Assembly (NCBI RefSeq): GCF_002005225.1
Contig: NZ_CP019724.1
Span: forward strand, 8,226,001-8,290,000
Source: Streptomyces pactum
GTDB taxonomy: Bacteria > Actinomycetota > Actinomycetes > Streptomycetales > Streptomycetaceae
Length of the DNA: 64,000 nucleotides
Direction: 5' to 3'
Shown here: positions 19,823 to 35,204 of the stretch, one piece after another
How positions within the stretch are numbered: the stretch's first letter is position 1
Layout of the letters: every line of letters starts with the position of its first letter
The notes under the pieces: generated by a model
Database searches by the model: none
Told to the model about the DNA's origin: nothing
What the model saw: only the letters and a program-made list of their open reading frames with translations
Position numbers and translations under genes: made by a program

Positions 19823-19948
19823 GTGAGCACGCGACCCCCGCCCCCGCCCCACAACAAAACAGAACGCACACCGCCCACCGGGCAGTGCACAAGTGACCCG
19901 ACGCGCCTACGGTGGGAAACAGACCCCACCCGGCCCGAGGAGCGCGCG

Positions 19949-21610
19949 ATGGCCGAACCCACGGCGGCCGCAGACCGTGGCGGGCTGGCGGAAGGCCGCG
20001 CGGCGTACCGCCGCCGGGACTGGCCCCAGGCCTACGACCGGCTGTCCGCCGCCGACGCGCGAGCGCCGCTCCCGGCTGAGGACACGGAGCACCTAGCCAC
20101 AACCGCGTATCTGGTCGGGCACGAGGAAACGGCCTTCGCCGCCTGGGAGCGGGCCTGGCTCGCCTTCCGCGCCGAGGGCGCGACCGGCCGCGCCGTACGG
20201 TGCGCCTTCTGGCTCGGCCTGACCCTGGCCTTGCTCGGCGAGCACTCGCGCGCGGGCGGCTGGTTCAGCCGCGCGGGACGCCTGCTGGAGGAGTCCGGCG
20301 CGGACTGCGTGGAACGCGGCTATCTCCTGGTGCCCAGCGGCGTGCAGGCACTCGGGACCGGGGACTTCGACCGTGCCCGCACCACGTGCGCCGACGTCGA
20401 GCGGATCGCCGCGCGGTTCGGCGACCCCGACCTCACCGCGTTCGGCACGCTCGGCCAGGGCCAGGCGCTGATCGGCTCCGGGGACGTGGTGCGCGGTACG
20501 GCGCTCCTGGACGAGGCGATGGTCGGCGTGACGGCCGGAGAGGTCTCCCCGGTCACCGCGGGCATCGTCTACTGCGCGGTGATCCTCGCCTGCCGGGACG
20601 CGTTCGACGTGCGGCGCGCCACGGAGTGGACGGCAGCGCTCAGCCGCTGGTGCGACGGACAACCGGGCCTCAAGCCCTACCGCGGGCAGTGTCTGGTGCA
20701 CCGTTCGGAGGTCATGCAGATGCGCGGCGCGTGGTCCGACGCGCTGGCCGAGGTACGTGAGGCCTGTGCCCACATGGCCGACCGCGACTCCGACCCCGCG
20801 CTGGGCATGGCCCAGTACCAGCGGGGAGAACTGCTCCGGCTGCGCGGTGAATTCGCGCACGCCGAGGAGGCCTACCGGCAGGCCGAACGCTGGGGCTGCC
20901 CGCCGCAGCCCGGCCTGGCGCTGCTGCGGCTCGCCCAGGGCCGTACCGCCGATGCCGACGCGGCGGTGCGCAGGGTCGCGGCGCAGGCCGAGGGCGACCG
21001 GGTGCGGCGCGCCCGGATCCTCGCCGCCTACGTCGACATTCTGCTGGCCACCGGCGACACGAGCGGCGCGCGGGAGGCCGCCGACGAGCTCGGAAAGGCG
21101 GCGGACGACCTCGGGCCGCCGTATCTGCGTGCGGTCGCCGCGGGCGCGGACGGCACGGTCCTGCTCGCGGAACGCGACGCGTCCGGCGCCTGGGAGGCCC
21201 TGAACGCCGCCCGAACGCTGTGGCAGGAGCTGCGGGTCCCCTACGAGGCGGCGCGGGCCGGTGTCTCGATGGCCGAGGCGTGCGCGCTGCTCGGCGACCA
21301 CGACACGGCCGGGCTGGAGCTGGACGCCGCCCGCACGGTCTTCGAAGAGCTCGGCGCCGCTCCTGACCTGGCCCGCCTGCGAGCGCGGTCCGAGCGGGCA
21401 CGGCCCCCGCTGCCCGGCGGGCTGACCTCCCGCGAGGCGCAGGTGCTGCGGCTCGTCGCCGGGGGCGCCGGCAACCGGGAGATCGCCGCCACGCTCGTGA
21501 TCAGCGAGAAGACCGTGGCCCGCCATCTGAGCAACATGTTCACGAAGCTGGGCGTCTCCAGCAGGGCCGCGGCCACCGCGTACGCCTACGAGCACGGCCT
21601 CACACGCTGA
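19949..21610 (+). CDS. LuxR-type regulator with TPR-like sensor region
   Basis: A 553-aa protein. About residues 20-470 are helical repeats of TPR type (for example the helix pair around FAHAEEAYRQAERWG), and the C-terminal about 65 residues are a LuxR/GerE helix-turn-helix (LTSREAQVLRLVAGGAGNRE and ISEKTVARHLSNMFTKLGV). There is no ATPase domain, so it is not a full LAL regulator. The ATG at 19949 follows CGAGGAGCG; the frame is open upstream but that part is atypical. It probably controls the hydrolase and methyltransferase genes that follow on the same strand. Confidence 0.87.
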   Translation: MAEPTAAADRGGLAEGRAAYRRRDWPQAYDRLSAADARAPLPAEDTEHLATTAYLVGHEETAFAAWERAWLAFRAEGATGRAVRCAFWLGLTLALLGEHSRAGGWFSRAGRLLEESGADCVERGYLLVPSGVQALGTGDFDRARTTCADVERIAARFGDPDLTAFGTLGQGQALIGSGDVVRGTALLDEAMVGVTAGEVSPVTAGIVYCAVILACRDAFDVRRATEWTAALSRWCDGQPGLKPYRGQCLVHRSEVMQMRGAWSDALAEVREACAHMADRDSDPALGMAQYQRGELLRLRGEFAHAEEAYRQAERWGCPPQPGLALLRLAQGRTADADAAVRRVAAQAEGDRVRRARILAAYVDILLATGDTSGAREAADELGKAADDLGPPYLRAVAAGADGTVLLAERDASGAWEALNAARTLWQELRVPYEAARAGVSMAEACALLGDHDTAGLELDAARTVFEELGAAPDLARLRARSERARPPLPGGLTSREAQVLRLVAGGAGNREIAATLVISEKTVARHLSNMFTKLGVSSRAAATAYAYEHGLTR

Positions 21611-21775
21611 GCCCGCACAGCCGGGCTGCGCCTCCAGATGGGCTCCGCCTTCGCGCATGGGTGGTTCGACCCACGCCGCGCACCCGCCCGGATCTGCGTG
21701 ATTCGCCCGATGCGGCACGCGCGCCGCCGGACGGAGACTCCTCGTAGAACGAAGGGGTCAGTGGAGGAGGCAGTG

Positions 21776-22648
21776 ATGACCACAGCCACCGCACAGGACG
21801 CCAGGCGGCGTCTGCTCGCGGACATTCCCCTCATCGAGCACCGGCGCGACCTCGCCGGTGTGTCGACCGCCGTCCTGGAGGGCGGCAGCGGACCGCCCGT
21901 CGTGCTCCTGCACGGCATCGGCCAGACCTGCTTCTCGTGGGTCCGGGTGATTCCGGAGCTGGTCGACGGCTACTCGTTGGTCGTTCCCGACCTGCCGGGG
22001 CACGGCGCGTCCGAGATCGAGGACGGCCGCCCGCCCACCGCCGACCGGGCCGTCGAGTGGCTCACGGCGCTCGTCGACGACACCTGTGCCGCACCACCCG
22101 TCCTGGTGGGGCACAACATCGGCGGCGCGGCCGCGGCCCGGTTCGCGGTCGAACACTCCGAACGCCTCGCGGGACTCGTGCTCGCCGACGCCTTCGGCCT
22201 GGGCTCGTTCCGCCCGGAGCCGCGGTTCGCCCTCACCGTGGCCGCCTTCCAGATGCACGCGACCGAACGCAATTGGGACCGCATGCTGAACCGGTGCATG
22301 GTGGACTTCGACGGGGTCCAGCGCGACATGGGCGAGTGCTGGGACCGGATCGCCGACTACGCGCTGGACAGGGCCCGCGCGCCCGGTCCGAAGGCCGCGG
22401 GTCGTGCCCTGATGAAACACCTCGGCATGCCGTCCATCCCGGACGCCGATCTCGACCGCATCGACGTTCCCACGACACTGATCTGGGGTCGGCGGGACCC
22501 TGAGACGCGGCTGCGGTTCGCCGAGCGCGCCGCCGAACGGCACGGCTGGCCGCTGCACATCCTGGAGGACTGCGGCGCCGACTCCAACCTCGAACACCCG
22601 GACGCCTTCGTGGCCGCGCTGCGCACCGCGCTCCCGGCCCCGCACTAG
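21776..22648 (+). CDS. Alpha/beta-hydrolase-fold protein missing nucleophile and catalytic His
   Basis: A 290-aa protein with a clear alpha/beta-hydrolase fold: oxyanion-hole segment VVLLHGIGQTCFSWV, PDLPGHGASE, and the acid region WGRRDPETR. The nucleophile elbow, normally G-H-S-x-G-G, reads GHNIGG, so Ser is Asn114. The C-terminal catalytic His position reads CGADSNLEHPDAF where CGHDSNLE... is expected, so His is Ala268. It is therefore probably not a hydrolase; a binding, lyase-like or cofactor-free role is possible. The ATG at 21776 has GGAGGAGG just upstream. Confidence 0.85.
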   Translation: MTTATAQDARRRLLADIPLIEHRRDLAGVSTAVLEGGSGPPVVLLHGIGQTCFSWVRVIPELVDGYSLVVPDLPGHGASEIEDGRPPTADRAVEWLTALVDDTCAAPPVLVGHNIGGAAAARFAVEHSERLAGLVLADAFGLGSFRPEPRFALTVAAFQMHATERNWDRMLNRCMVDFDGVQRDMGECWDRIADYALDRARAPGPKAAGRALMKHLGMPSIPDADLDRIDVPTTLIWGRRDPETRLRFAERAAERHGWPLHILEDCGADSNLEHPDAFVAALRTALPAPH

Positions 22649-30481: not shown

Positions 30482-31686
30482 TCAAGCGAGTCGAGGGTTT
30501 CTCGGTTCGTAGAAGGTTCCGTCGCGGAGCATGGCGAAGAGGACGCTGATGCGGTGGCGGGCGAGGCGGAGGAGGGCTTGGGTGTGGGATTTGCCGCGGG
30601 CTCGGCAGCGGTCGTAGTAGGTCCGGGAGGCGGGATCGTGCAGGGCCGCGAACGCGGAGAGGAACATCGCCCCTTTTCAGTTGCCGGTTGCCGCCTCTGG
30701 GGGCGTGTTCGCCGTGGATCGAGGTTCCCGACTGGCGGGTCGCCGGGGCGAGGCCGGCGTAGGAGGCCAGGTGGTCTGCGCTCGGGAACGAACTGCCGCC
30801 GCCGACGGTGGTCAGGAGGACTGCGGCGGTCCTGACGCCGATGCCGGGCATCGAAGTCAGGACCTGGGAAAGAGGGTGGGCCTCCAGCAGGGTCTCGATC
30901 CGGGCCTGAAGGGCCGGCGTTGTTCATGGACGGCGGCCAGCGACTTCGCCAGCGAAGGGACGATCACGTCGAGGGTGCCGGTGCCCGGGTCGGTGACGGT
31001 CTGCTCGTCGAGCGCGGTGAAGATGTCGTCGACCAGCCGTTCGGCCATGCGCGGGGCTCTCGGGCGGACGACTTCGACCAGCCTGCGGCGGCCGGCCTTG
31101 CGCAGAGCGGCGGGGGATCCGTAACGCTCGAGAAGCCAGGTGACGGCCTGGTGGTCCAGGCGTGGGCCGAGGACGCGTTCCAGGCCGGGGGTGGAACTGG
31201 GTGAGCAGGCCGCGGATGCGGTTGGAGGTGCGGTTGGCCTCGCCGGCGAGGTCCTGGTCGAAGCCGACGAGCATGGTCAGCTCGGCGGTGACCTCGTCGG
31301 CGAGTTCGAGGGTGCGCAGGGTGTGGGGCATGGTGCGGGCGGCGTCCGCGATGACCGCGGCGTCCCTTCGCGTCGGTCTTGGCCTCGCCGGGGTAGAGGT
31401 CGGCGATCCGCCGCATCGCGAGTCCGGGCAGGCAGGCGACCTGGCAGCCGGCGTGGCGGGCGACGGTCAGCGGCAGGGCGCCGATGGAGGCGGGCTGGTC
31501 CACGACCAGCAGAACCGTGCCGAACTTGGCCTGGAGCTTGTCGAAGACGGCCCGCAGCTTCGGTTCGCTGTTGGGCAGCGGCTTGTCGAAGACCGTCTTC
31601 CCGGCCGGGGTCAGGCCGTGGCCGTGATGCGCGTGCTTGCCGACGTCCAGGCCCAGGAAGACGCCCACCCCGTCGATGCTGATCAC
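30482..31686 (-). pseudogene. IS110-family transposase with four frameshifts
   Basis: Nearly the whole protein can be read right to left: VFLGLDVGKHAHHGHGLTPA (first acidic residue), VLLVVDQPASIGALPL, LYPGEAKTDAK, then AELTMLVGFDQDLAGEANRT. The C-terminal Tnp_20 domain follows (SMPGIGVRTAAVLL, SADHLASYAGLAPATRQSG) and finally YYDRCRARGKSHTQALLRLA. Frames change near 31375, 31188, 30917 and 30675, in each case at a short G or C run. The GTG at 31686 would be the start. As written it is inactive. Confidence 0.85.
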
Positions 31687-31904
31687 CGTGCCCCCACCTG
31701 TGTCGATGCGTGCCGGCCTCGGCGGTTGGGGCCGTTCGCGCGCATCCACGTTATGCAGACCTGCCGCCCGCGAGCGGCCGGGCATTGCGCCCGGCCGGGC
31801 GGTGGTCGGACCTCTGATCAGCGTCTCCGACGGCACCCCTCGAGCCCGGTGACACCACCCCCAGGTCATCCGTTCGACAGGGAGCAACAGTCATGCCGGG
31901 CCCG
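31687..31904 (-). ncRNA. IS110 noncoding leader, candidate bridge-RNA region
   Basis: This is the noncoding stretch between the element's left boundary (near 31904) and its transposase start. The part 31763-31904 is repeated at 19671-19822. It holds a 9-bp hairpin (31775-31783/31789-31797) and a stem GTCGGA (31805-31810)/TCCGAC (31826-31831). IS110-group elements are known to encode their guide (bridge) RNA in this position. Transcription and the guide loops are inferred, not shown. Confidence 0.4.
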
Positions 31905-32420
31905 GAGGCCGGCGGCCCTCTTGCAGGACTGCGAAAAACATAACGGGGGCCAGTGGAAAGCTTCCCCTCCTGGTAGATCTCATCGCCGTGCCGCGTCCGC
32001 ATTCTCAGACCGCCCTTCAGGACGACGTTCCTCATGCGCGACTCCACGCCGCCGCCTTCGATGACGACTGGGGTCTCACCGCGCGTCACAGACACGGCAC
32101 CCCGATGGCCTCGCAGGCGTCCGCGCCGACCGGCAGCACCTGCGTGCCGGCCAGGGTCACGACAGACCAGCCAACGTGCGCGCCATTGCCTCGGTGATTG
32201 TTCCGCAGCTACGGCGGGAGGCGGTTGCGGCTCATGTGCGAAGCCGCGCGCCGCGCCTGGCGGCAGGAGCTGCAGTGGCATCACCGTCCTTGGCTGGTTT
32301 CGCCCGTTCACTCGTATCTGCCATGCCGGTAGCGTTATAACCCGTTAGGTGCACCTGCGGCCTGCTGAGTTGTCAACGGGATGCTCATGCACCGAGTGGT
32401 TCGGTGGCGGACCGTTATGC
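31905..32420. other. Region upstream of the RiPP locus, no intact gene
   Basis: No complete gene was recognised. The minus strand near 32100-32190 reads like the C-terminus of a protein (VGWSVVTLAGTQVLPVGADA up to a stop near 32093) but cannot be extended and may be a relic. The promoter for the peptide genes should lie in 32300-32440; no convincing -35/-10 pair was fixed. Confidence 0.4.
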
Positions 32421-32468
32421 CTCAACCCGGTCCGTACAGCGAAGAACCGATCAACAAGGAGGACCACG

Positions 32469-32561
32469 ATGTCGTGGATCACCAGCGGCCTTCGGATGCT
32501 CAGCGGTGAAATGCGTGCGCGCCGGCACGGGTACTTCGTCGGGTATGGGCAGCGGGACTGA
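32469..32561 (+). CDS. Candidate RiPP precursor peptide 1 (30 aa)
   Basis: A 30-codon ORF with AAGGAGG 6-7 nt before the ATG. The peptide opens MSWITSGLRMLSGEMRARR and ends with an 11-residue Tyr/Gly-rich segment, HGYFVGYGQRD. It shares 21 of 30 residues with the ORF at 32701: 16 of the first 19 but only 5 of the last 11. Conserved leader and variable core are the hallmark of ribosomal peptide precursors. Tyr22 and Tyr26 are kept in both, spaced Y-x-x-x-Y, with further aromatics His20 and Phe23. The P450 downstream is the likely maturase, joining aromatic side chains. Function inferred; not secreted by any recognisable signal peptide. Confidence 0.75.
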   Translation: MSWITSGLRMLSGEMRARRHGYFVGYGQRD

Positions 32562-32700
32562 CGCACTGGCGGTGACATGGGTCGCGTAGCGGGGATCTTC
32601 GCGTCCGACCCTTGCCCTCCAGCAATGACACCACCAGACCCTGTACCGGTCGGGGCCGGCTCCGGACAACTGATGGCACCGATCAACGAGGAGGGCCGCG

Positions 32701-32793
32701 ATGTCGTGGATAGCCAGCACTCTTCGAGTGCTCAGCGGTGAGATGCGTGCCCGTCGGTACGGGTACGGCGGCAAGTACGGACGGAGCGACTGA
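32701..32793 (+). CDS. Candidate RiPP precursor peptide 2 (30 aa)
   Basis: A second 30-codon ORF, with GAGGAGGG upstream of its ATG. It opens MSWIASTLRVLSGEMRARR and ends YGYGGKYGRSD. The duplicate extends into the ribosome-site region (ACCGATCAACRAGGAGG in both). Tyr20, Tyr22 and Tyr26 are candidate crosslinking residues; Phe23 of peptide 1 is Gly here, so the two products would differ. It ends 74 bp before the P450 start, with a hairpin between, and so likely shares a transcript with the P450. Confidence 0.75.
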   Translation: MSWIASTLRVLSGEMRARRYGYGGKYGRSD

Positions 32794-32861
32794 CACCCTC
32801 ACCTTCGGGAAGGGGTGCGCAGATGGATCGCCGCGTCTCATCCCCTGTCAGACGGGCATAA
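32794..32861 (+). promoter_or_regulatory. Hairpin and 12-codon leader ORF before the P450
   Basis: A hairpin (CACCC 32794-32798 with GGGTG 32813-32817; inner CCTT/AAGG stem) contains the GGAAGGGG ribosome site of an ATG at 32823. That ATG is in the P450 frame but meets TAA after 12 codons (32859-32861), 6 nt before the P450 GTG. It could be a leader peptide allowing reinitiation at the P450, or a nonsense change in its original start. Confidence 0.5.
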
Positions 32862-32867
32862 CACCTC

Positions 32868-34073
32868 GTGCTCTTGAATAGACGGAGTCTGTGGACCCAC
32901 CTGCGGCGGTGGGAACAACTGGCGGCGCACGCCGATGGTCCATTCAGGCTCCGCTTCGGGACCCTCTTCATCGCCGACGCAAACGCGGCCCGGGAGGTCC
33001 TGGTCGACTCGGCTGACAACTACCTGCCACAGTCCGGGTTCCTCCGGATCGGGCCGACGCCCCTCTCCCAGGCGCTTCGGACCGAAGCGTCACGCGAGCT
33101 GATCAAAGTCCTGGCCCGTTGCGATCTCGATGCGTCGTTCGACGTTGACGCCGCCGTCCGTGAGCTGAGTGACAGCCGCAGCCGTCTGCGGCATCAGCGG
33201 TGGGGAGTCGGACTGATCCGGCGGTACTTCGCCCCCGTCATAGCGGACCAGCACCATACCGAGATCAACATGCTTGTCGATGACTACGTGACATCGAGCG
33301 TGGTCGCGGACGACATCGTCGGTCACCTGGTGAGAAGACCACACCGTTCGGTACCCCTCATCCGGGCCGGGTTCGCGGAGCAGTTGAGACGCCTGCCGCA
33401 ACGCTCGGCCGACGCGGCGGACCTGGCCGACGCGGTGGACCTGGTCGATCTGGTGCTGGGTCTGCCGGGGGAACTGTCTTCGGCGGATCGCGCGCAACTG
33501 TTGCAGCGGCTCGTCCTTTCCACGGTCGGTTTCACCGGCGTAACCCTTGAATGGGTGGTGCTGCTCGGCATTCAGCACGGGTACAACCGCCCAACAGTAC
33601 GACCAGAGGAGGTCCGTTTCCTGGTCAGGGAGACGCTGCGCCTCTATCCAACCGCATGGCGCCTGGTCAGGGTGGCCGCCACCGCGCATGACATAGCCGG
33701 CGTCTCGGTGCACGAGGGTGAGCACGTTCTGATCGGCACGCACGCGATCCATCGGTCAGGGGCCGTATGGGACAAGCCATTCGAAGTGTGTCCCTCGCGC
33801 TGGGAGAAACCGACCGACGACCAGAGGCGGTCGTATCTCCCCTTCGGGAAAGGCGAGGGGATGTGCCCGGCGAACGGCTTCGCCGTCAAAGCTCTGGAGC
33901 ACCTTGGCTACCTCATCCTCCGAAACTACCGGGGGAGCGTGCGGTTCCGAAGACGCAAGCCACATGTCCGCACGCTCCTCGCACCGCCAGCAGGCTGGAC
34001 CCGCCTCACCAAGGACGGGGAGACCTCGTTCCCGCCCTCGAACGGCGTTACTGACTTCGGCTCGCCAGGGTGA
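32868..34073 (+). CDS. Cytochrome P450, candidate RiPP crosslinking enzyme
   Basis: A 401-aa P450. The haem loop YLPFGKGEGMCPANGFAV has axial Cys333, the K-helix ExxR is E255-T-L-R258, and the I-helix region is VGFTGVTLEW. It directly follows two tandem short-peptide genes, with no other tailoring enzyme, the minimal layout known for biarylitide-, cittilin- and atropopeptide-type P450 RiPPs. The GTG at 32868 lacks a clear ribosome site. The last seven residues (TDFGSPG) and the stop are encoded by the left end of an inserted IS630; excising it restores MKREAGP and a TAA at 35240-35242, the same length. The core enzyme is intact. Confidence 0.87.
   Translation: MLLNRRSLWTHLRRWEQLAAHADGPFRLRFGTLFIADANAAREVLVDSADNYLPQSGFLRIGPTPLSQALRTEASRELIKVLARCDLDASFDVDAAVRELSDSRSRLRHQRWGVGLIRRYFAPVIADQHHTEINMLVDDYVTSSVVADDIVGHLVRRPHRSVPLIRAGFAEQLRRLPQRSADAADLADAVDLVDLVLGLPGELSSADRAQLLQRLVLSTVGFTGVTLEWVVLLGIQHGYNRPTVRPEEVRFLVRETLRLYPTAWRLVRVAATAHDIAGVSVHEGEHVLIGTHAIHRSGAVWDKPFEVCPSRWEKPTDDQRRSYLPFGKGEGMCPANGFAVKALEHLGYLILRNYRGSVRFRRRKPHVRTLLAPPAGWTRLTKDGETSFPPSNGVTDFGSPG
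34051..34073. repeat. IS630 left inverted repeat
   Basis: It begins CTGACTTCGGCTCG and ends CAGGGTGA; its last three bases are the present stop codon of the P450. Confidence 0.93.
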
Positions 34074-34125: not shown

Positions 34126-35204
34126 GTGAGATATGCGGATGGGGGCGGGCTGACCGCTGCGGGACGTCGGCGCCGGGAGTCGGTGCGGATGCAGGCGGCC
34201 GAGCTGTTCGAGCAGGAGATCAAGCCGCCGGAGGTGGCACGGCGACTGCGGGTGAGCCTGAAATCGGCCTACCAGTGGCACCAGCTGTGGCGGGACGGTG
34301 GTCATGAGGCTCTGGCCTCCCGCGGCCCGAGCGGATCCCGTTGCCGGCTGTCCCCGCGCTGTCTGGAGAAACTGGCTGCGTACCTCGATGAGGGCCCGGC
34401 CGCCCACGGCTGGGTGGAGGACCAGGTGTGGACCGCGGCGAGGGTGGCCACGCTGATCGGCCGGAAGTTCCACGTCTCCTACAGCGTCTCCGGTGCCACG
34501 AGGCTGATGCACCGGCTCGGCTTCAGCCCGCAGGTCCCCGCACGGCGGGTCGCCGAGCGCGACGAGAGGGCCGTCACCGTGTGGAAGGAGGTGACCTGGG
34601 CGGAGGTAAAAGAGCCCGGGCGGCCTGCGGGGGCTACATCTGCTTCGAGGACGAAGCAGGGTTCACGCGGAAGCCGCCCCGGGGACGAACCTGGGGCCGG
34701 CGCGGGCACACCCCGGTCGTGACCGTCAGCGGGCGACGCTCGGGGCGGCTGTCGGTGGCCGGACTGATCGCCATGCGGCCCGGCTCCCGTACCCGGCTGT
34801 GCCACCGCCTGCGCGCCCACCGGGCGGGCAGAGGCAAACGCCGCAGCATGGGCGAGCGTGACTTCATCGCGCTCGTCGACGGCGTCCACCAGCTCCTCAA
34901 GGCACCTATCGTGCTGGTCTGGGACCGCCTCAACACCCACGTCTCTCACGCCATGCGCAAGTTGATCGCCGAGCGCGCATGGCTGACAGTGTTCCTGCTG
35001 CCCGCCTACTCACCCGACCTCAACCCCGTCGAATGGGTATGGGCACACATCAAACGCAGCCTGGCCAACCTCGCCGTCGTCGCGCTCGACCGGCTCGAAG
35101 CACTCGTCCGTAACCGACTCAAGCGCCTTCAGTACCGGCCCGGCACCCTCGACGGCTTCATAGCCGGCACCGGCCTGACTCTCGACGAACCTGCCTCACC
35201 CTGA
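34126..35204 (+). CDS. IS630 transposase, probably made by -1 frameshift
   Basis: The first frame (34126 to about 34611) gives the helix-turn-helix half: MRYADGGGLTAAG, then EVARRLRVSLKSAYQWHQLW. The second frame gives the DDE half: YICFEDEAGF, VLVWDRLNTHVS and SPDLNPVEWVWAHIK supply the D, D and E residues. They join at GTA-AAA-GAG (34606-34614), where tRNA-Lys on AAA can slip back one base onto another AAA, giving a continuous protein (V-K-R-A-R-A-A-C-G-G-Y). IS630 members are known to use such frameshifting, so the element may still be active. Confidence 0.85.

Follow-up and report, generated by a model that had tools for sequence, protein, structure and literature searches.

We identified in Streptomyces pactum a compact three-gene locus that is likely a RiPP cassette, in which one cytochrome P450 would oxidise two short precursor peptides, A and B, most likely by bonding Tyr22 to Tyr26. 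The locus lies in a stretch of 64,000 nucleotides (the window; bases 8,226,001-8,290,000 within the 8,550,793-base genome). Given the co-occurrence of precursors and P450, their fixed gene order, the selection acting on the peptides and the kinship of the P450 to hyalucidin-type enzymes, the reading of this locus as a P450-RiPP system is well supported at the level of sequence comparison. Its features are as follows.

32289..32335, + strand: promoter-like element, CTTGGCTGGTTTCGCCCGTTCACT (32289-32312) and TAGCGT (32330-32335), from a block aligned in 15/15 loci
32469..32561, + strand: precursor A, MSWITSGLRMLSGEMRARRHGYFVGYGQRD, a 30-codon ORF with orthologues in 14/15 loci
32701..32793, + strand: precursor B, MSWIASTLRVLSGEMRARRYGYGGKYGRSD, a 30-codon ORF with orthologues in 14/15 loci
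32807..32844, + strand: hairpin between B and the P450, a possible attenuator, from 12 aligned loci and weak in the window itself
32868..34073, + strand: cytochrome P450 of 401 residues, the proposed modifying enzyme for A and B, with a match to Pfam PF00067 and orthologues in other genomes

The layout agrees with what an earlier note on this DNA had described: both short ORFs are exactly 30 codons long and are found at the coordinates it gave, each has a strong ribosome site (AAGGAGG and GAGGAGG were seen upstream), 21 of the 30 positions carry the same residue in both (16 of the first 19 and 5 of the last 11), and the P450, which starts with the GTG at 32868, begins 74 bases past B. The note's remark that no protease or exporter lies nearby was borne out in the relatives, where none is conserved next to the cassette. 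An IS110-type transposase frame (30964-31887, − strand) and an IS630-like transposase (34126-35204, + strand), the latter split over two overlapping frames, flank the cassette in the window. The window also encodes a second P450 (18027-19478, + strand), which is canonical and 483 residues long; next come a LuxR-type regulator at 19823-21610 and, at 21638-22648, an alpha/beta hydrolase.

A protein search with the cassette P450 returned 62 proteins out of 8000 scored candidates, 51 of which (P0003-P0053) are 66-86% identical to it; those entries that bear names are from Streptomyces, plus one Embleya. One protein with 43% identity came from a Pseudonocardiales MAG, and the relatives P0054 (42-43%) and P0059 (31-33%) are protein sequences only, with no flanking DNA. 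Two family P450s (P0010 and P0032) belong to Streptomyces sp. Wb2n-11, apparently on one 7,583,077-base contig, and perhaps represent two cassettes. A scan of the genome collection yielded 37 stretches, giving 8 loci, and one of 72,556 records matched in the plasmid collection.

The genome distributions of P450 and precursors coincide. At a threshold of E 1e-20, the P450 search picked up 12 of 392 Streptomyces genomes. Six of these have orthologues, whose best E does not exceed 6.7e-118; in the other six the matches are weaker (best E 6.5e-23 to 9.3e-22, 29-35% identity). When the same 392 genomes were searched with a profile of 18 precursors, 11 gave matches at E 0.01. The six with the orthologous P450 each contain two copies (E no higher than 8.4e-12); each of the other five has a single weak match (0.0018-0.0082), which in four cases sits inside a longer frame. 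The P450 profile matched 8 of 394 genomes drawn at the family level, five of them strongly and each of these five with both A and B; the remaining matches were one 91-residue remnant and two hyalucidin-type P450s. The remnant, L055 from another genus of the family, is present where a precursor match is absent. At the class level, 2 of 394 genomes (137 genera) matched, both from the same genus as the window, and the genus, family and class draws of genomes overlap.

After duplicates had been dropped (L013 is L003, L017 is L007, and L052 is 99.7% identical to L051), 15 non-redundant loci with an orthologous P450 were available for comparison (the window, L001-L008, L014, L015, L016, L043, L051 and L053). 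Had short ORFs not been conserved upstream of orthologous P450s, the proposal of the earlier note would have fallen; all 15 loci carry at least one precursor and 13 carry both, in every case directly upstream of the P450. L001 has only A and L006 only B, so that the pair is not indispensable. Chance ORFs are ruled out by this recurrence and by a genome distribution that matches that of the P450. In an all-against-all comparison of ORFs from the 15 flanks, which differ in length (those of L004 and L053 are short), only the P450 and frames overlapping the cassette recur in more than 3 loci; a conserved protease or exporter is thereby ruled out. Blastn against L001, the closest named relative with DNA, gave homology from about 32183 to 34047, with most of B unaligned. 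In S. altiplanensis (L007:5001-6145, the same as L046, G119:C410), a frame change interrupts the orthologous P450, reflecting either decay or a sequencing error, and A and B are intact.

The precursors themselves align over 30 columns without a gap. In an alignment of 18 rows, which omits B of L016 (its start, by eye, lies seven codons further upstream) and counts GTG starts as M, the residues M1, W3, S12, E14, R16, Y22, Y26 and G27 are invariant. In a tree of the 14 A and 14 B genes, a single branch separates all A from all B (99/98), and this split corresponds to 1 change against a shuffled mean of 9.6; of the 25 inner branches only 3 are starred, which is to be expected with 90 bases. Identity over the full length is 0.83 within A, 0.72 within B and 0.52 between them, and over residues 20-30 it is 0.84, 0.72 and 0.32, respectively. 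A conserved leader followed by a variable core had been proposed in the earlier note. The leader is indeed of one kind, but the last 11 residues form two fixed core types, and the residue 20-30 identities within and between the groups rule out a freely variable core. All 14 A contain HGYF, and 13 of the 14 B contain YGDRYG; the exception is the window's own B with YGYGGKYG. Judging from the tree and these alignments, A, with the core HGYF..YG, and B, in most loci with YGDRYG, are old paralogues that have been kept together.

Selection at the peptide level extends over the whole length of both precursors. By the Nei-Gojobori method over all pairs of 14 sequences, which are not independent of one another, precursor A has a pN/pS of 0.31 (leader 0.34, core 0.26) and precursor B one of 0.42 (leader 0.40, core 0.48). 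A point against the proposed Tyr22-Tyr26 reading is that the codons of the two tyrosines barely vary, with TAC coding Y22 in 27 and Y26 in 25 of the 28 precursors. The 21 residues shared by A and B of the window compare with 12-19 in the other 12 two-gene loci, and the bases around the two ribosome sites are also alike in the window, which may perhaps reflect local gene conversion between A and B.

Pfam PF00067 matches residues 253-367 of the 401 in the proposed modifying enzyme (E 1.2e-18). The earlier note had called its motifs intact, which holds for the haem cysteine and the ExxR motif (ETLR) but not for the I-helix, where the acid-alcohol pair is absent: the E-T pair of a canonical P450 from the same genome (L010) aligns to G-F. 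Canonical P450 haem motifs have His or Arg two residues before the cysteine and Gly two residues after it. In the alignment with L010, the haem loop of the cassette enzyme, FGKGEGMCPA, keeps the cysteine and lacks both the His/Arg at Cys-2 and the Gly at Cys+2. Among 51 homologues, 48 have VGFTG, 49 E.LRL.P.AWRL and 50 FG[KR]G..MC[PA]A. The nearest solved chain is 9ulw, with E 1.7e-18 to the cassette P450 and 1.2e-69 to the P450 of a hyalucidin-type locus, L022; no mention of 9ULW was found in the literature searched. In a P450 tree, the cassette P450 falls in a clade of 9 rows (98/99) separate from the hyalucidin-type enzymes. The tree omits, through its motif filter, L011 and the second P450s of hyalucidin-type loci, and, having flagged long branches, is used solely for this clade. 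By sequence, the closest named company of the cassette P450 is thus a RiPP P450 group, with the cassette enzymes forming a clade of their own.

This group was represented by eight hyalucidin-type loci (L018, L019, L020, L022, L023, L025, L056 and L057), of which L056 and L057 came from the profile search and the other six from the genus-level P450 search; L023 and L025 share one genome (G276). The P450s of those six are 30-35% identical to the cassette P450 over part of the length. In all eight, a short peptide follows the P450 and ends in WYLYHHI (seven) or WYVYHHI (one), and the peptides of L022 and L023 exceed the cut-off of the NCBIfam model 'hyalucidin A family RiPP precursor' (NF053510). 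In L018, L019, L020 and L022, a 407-residue frame comes next; that of L022, the one tested, is a P450. The hyalucidin-type P450s are the nearest named relatives found for the cassette P450: in both systems a precursor of 28-30 residues adjoins the P450, the I-helix acid is lost and 9ulw is the nearest solved chain. By contrast, the hyalucidin order is P450 and then one precursor, with a second 407-residue frame in four loci, the precursor has its own ending, WY[LV]YHHI, and searches with NF053510 at E up to 1 gave no match to the A and B peptides of the window and L003. Tandem P450s are reportedly part of the hyalucidin pathway, going by the title of Yin 2026, whereas the cassette has one P450, and none is conserved beside it in the 15 flanks.

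The arrangement of a short precursor gene beside a modifying enzyme, the two conserved together, is that of RiPP loci in general. The core of cittilin is YIYY, and YxYY occurs in 0 of the 18 precursor rows. The earlier note had seen in the locus the pattern of biarylitide and atropopeptide pathways; the P450-RiPP kind stands, but the defining features of both classes are absent. Atropopeptides such as tryptorubin A are described, in the available part of PMC11450843, as products of small clusters with a precursor, one P450 and no dedicated protease that carry aromatic cross-links, and biarylitides, in the parts available of PMC12951456 and PMC13417212, as products of minimal clusters with one P450 that carry Tyr-based links. 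The small cluster with a single P450 is common to the cassette and both classes, and the lack of a protease fits the accounts given of atropopeptides (PMC11450843) and, in the portion seen, of biarylitides (PMC12951456). However, the former are defined in the same part of PMC11450843 by a KSLK-type leader motif (KSLK/RSLK/ESLK/KSRK/KPLK/PSLK) at positions 17-20 and a Trp at core position 2. By eye, such a motif is found in 0 of the 28 A and B sequences, the nearest resemblance being a KSLR or RSLR that some B have at residues 6-9, and residues 20-30 are without Trp in all 28. Two precursors were apparent in 2 of 683 atropopeptide clusters, as far as the available text of PMC11450843 reports, suggesting that a conserved pair such as that of the cassette would be unusual there. 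Biarylitide precursors have five residues, in contrast to the 30 residues with a long leader found here.

The best NCBIfam match of the cassette P450 was the model for ApyO (E 4.6e-13, residues 249-354), at 48.6 bits against a cut-off of 525. ApyO, the aminopyruvatide enzyme, is a RiPP P450 that links two tyrosines in a YLYD motif and has an MNIO enzyme as partner, according to the part of PMC13192836 available, whereas the cassette has YxxxY and no conserved MNIO neighbour. The i,i+4 spacing of the tyrosines in A and B exceeds the three- and four-residue scaffolds named in that part of PMC13192836, a point against the proposed Tyr22-Tyr26 link. By the features tested, the cassette is not an atropopeptide, biarylitide, aminopyruvatide or hyalucidin locus, and it works at most like biarylitide and atropopeptide pathways.

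There is nevertheless a substantial possibility that surveys of P450-RiPPs (He 2023, Hu 2023, Liu 2024, Nam 2023) already include the family, perhaps as an uncharacterised one. Mining for atropopeptides and biarylitides likewise brought in many other P450s, and the SPECO survey covered 20,399 actinomycete genomes and gave 1057 clusters in 11 categories and 19 novel clusters, as stated in the available part of PMC12299652. Against this, the leader and core strings were absent from the main texts searched, those surveys excepted, and neither NCBIfam nor Pfam has a model that matches the precursors of the window or of L003. The 93-base A and B genes are also absent from the annotation of one plasmid copy, for which the gene table is incomplete; short genes with no model and missing from an annotation make such loci easily overlooked.

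Two non-coding elements accompany the genes. A block like TTTGGCYGGTT..CGGCAGTTCACCCGG and then TAGCGT, about 100-180 bases upstream of the first precursor, aligns in 15/15 loci, and its strict expression matches 13/15; a spacing of 17 bases separates TTCACT (32307-32312) from TAGCGT (32330-32335) in the window. When up to 3 mismatches are allowed, the pattern occurs in the own genome at the cassette and at four overlapping places in one tandem repeat, compared with 1 match for the reversed pattern and an expectation of 0.01 per window. We infer that this block is a promoter. Between B and the P450, a hairpin was aligned for 12 of the 15 loci, as the gaps of L004 and L008 are only 35 and 27 bases and L001 has no B. 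Its cells are paired in 90.9%, compared with 86.3 in shuffles (1/500 as high) and 47.7-58.3 when slid; further pair types numbered 16 against 12.0 in shuffles (0/500), and covariation was 0.296 against 0.225 (5/500). Four pairs changed on both sides, a value reached by 55/500 shuffles. The 60-base stretches past the last precursor, folded singly, gave z from -5.3 (L053) to +1.1 (L008), that of the window (z -0.5) folding no better than shuffles, and no Rfam match was found at E up to 0.1. These data lend moderate support to a conserved hairpin, which could possibly act as an attenuator.

Taken together, we propose a pathway in which the unit would be read in the order promoter, precursor A, precursor B, hairpin and P450. 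The common leader, approximately residues 1-19 (MSWxxxxLRxLSGExRxRx), would bring A and B to the same P450, which would oxidise their last 11 residues; one kind of leader with two fixed cores and one P450 suggests that a single enzyme oxidises both peptides. A Tyr22-Tyr26 bond, either C-C or C-O, would close a five-residue ring at a cost of 2 Da per peptide, and a protease encoded elsewhere would release two different cyclic peptides. The cassette P450 probably makes this link, because Y22 and Y26 are the sole aromatics of residues 20-30 common to all A and B. Either bond is conceivable given that ApyO joins tyrosines through C-C links and, when its substrates are altered, forms C-O links, according to the available part of PMC13192836.

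A P450-RiPP with another change, such as hydroxylation or links that in A involve Trp19, His20 or Phe23 and in a subset of B involve His28, with bonds that differ between the peptides, is unlikely. It is favoured by the conservation in A of W19 (12/14), H20 and F23 (14/14 each), which may thus serve as other sites, and by the Y26-G27-H28 of B in several loci, a Tyr-x-His as in biarylitides; Trp19, His20, Phe23 and His28 are not common to A and B, however, whereas Y22, Y26 and G27 are invariant in both. It is very improbable that the short ORFs encode peptides with a signal, antimicrobial or regulatory role, sharing the P450 transcript without being P450 substrates: modification by the P450 is deduced and a hairpin separates the ORFs from it, but the whole-length selection on the peptides, the exact co-occurrence across genomes and the RiPP-type kin of the P450 all speak against such a role.

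Returning to a cassette whose P450 oxidises A and B, we only tentatively suggest that one P450 has co-evolved with two conserved, diverged substrates and turns them into a matched pair of Tyr-Tyr (i,i+4) five-residue cyclic peptides with a joint action. Such a two-peptide P450-RiPP would have a five-residue i,i+4 ring, a size not described in the cited literature. P450-RiPPs increasingly supply rigid cyclic peptides and ring-closing enzymes, and the cassette would add a new family of ribosomal cyclic peptides. The family looks like a natural two-substrate P450 system, in which a single enzyme would serve two fixed cores behind a leader of one kind, and the natural A/B pairs from many strains allow leader-guided specificity and core tolerance to be tested.
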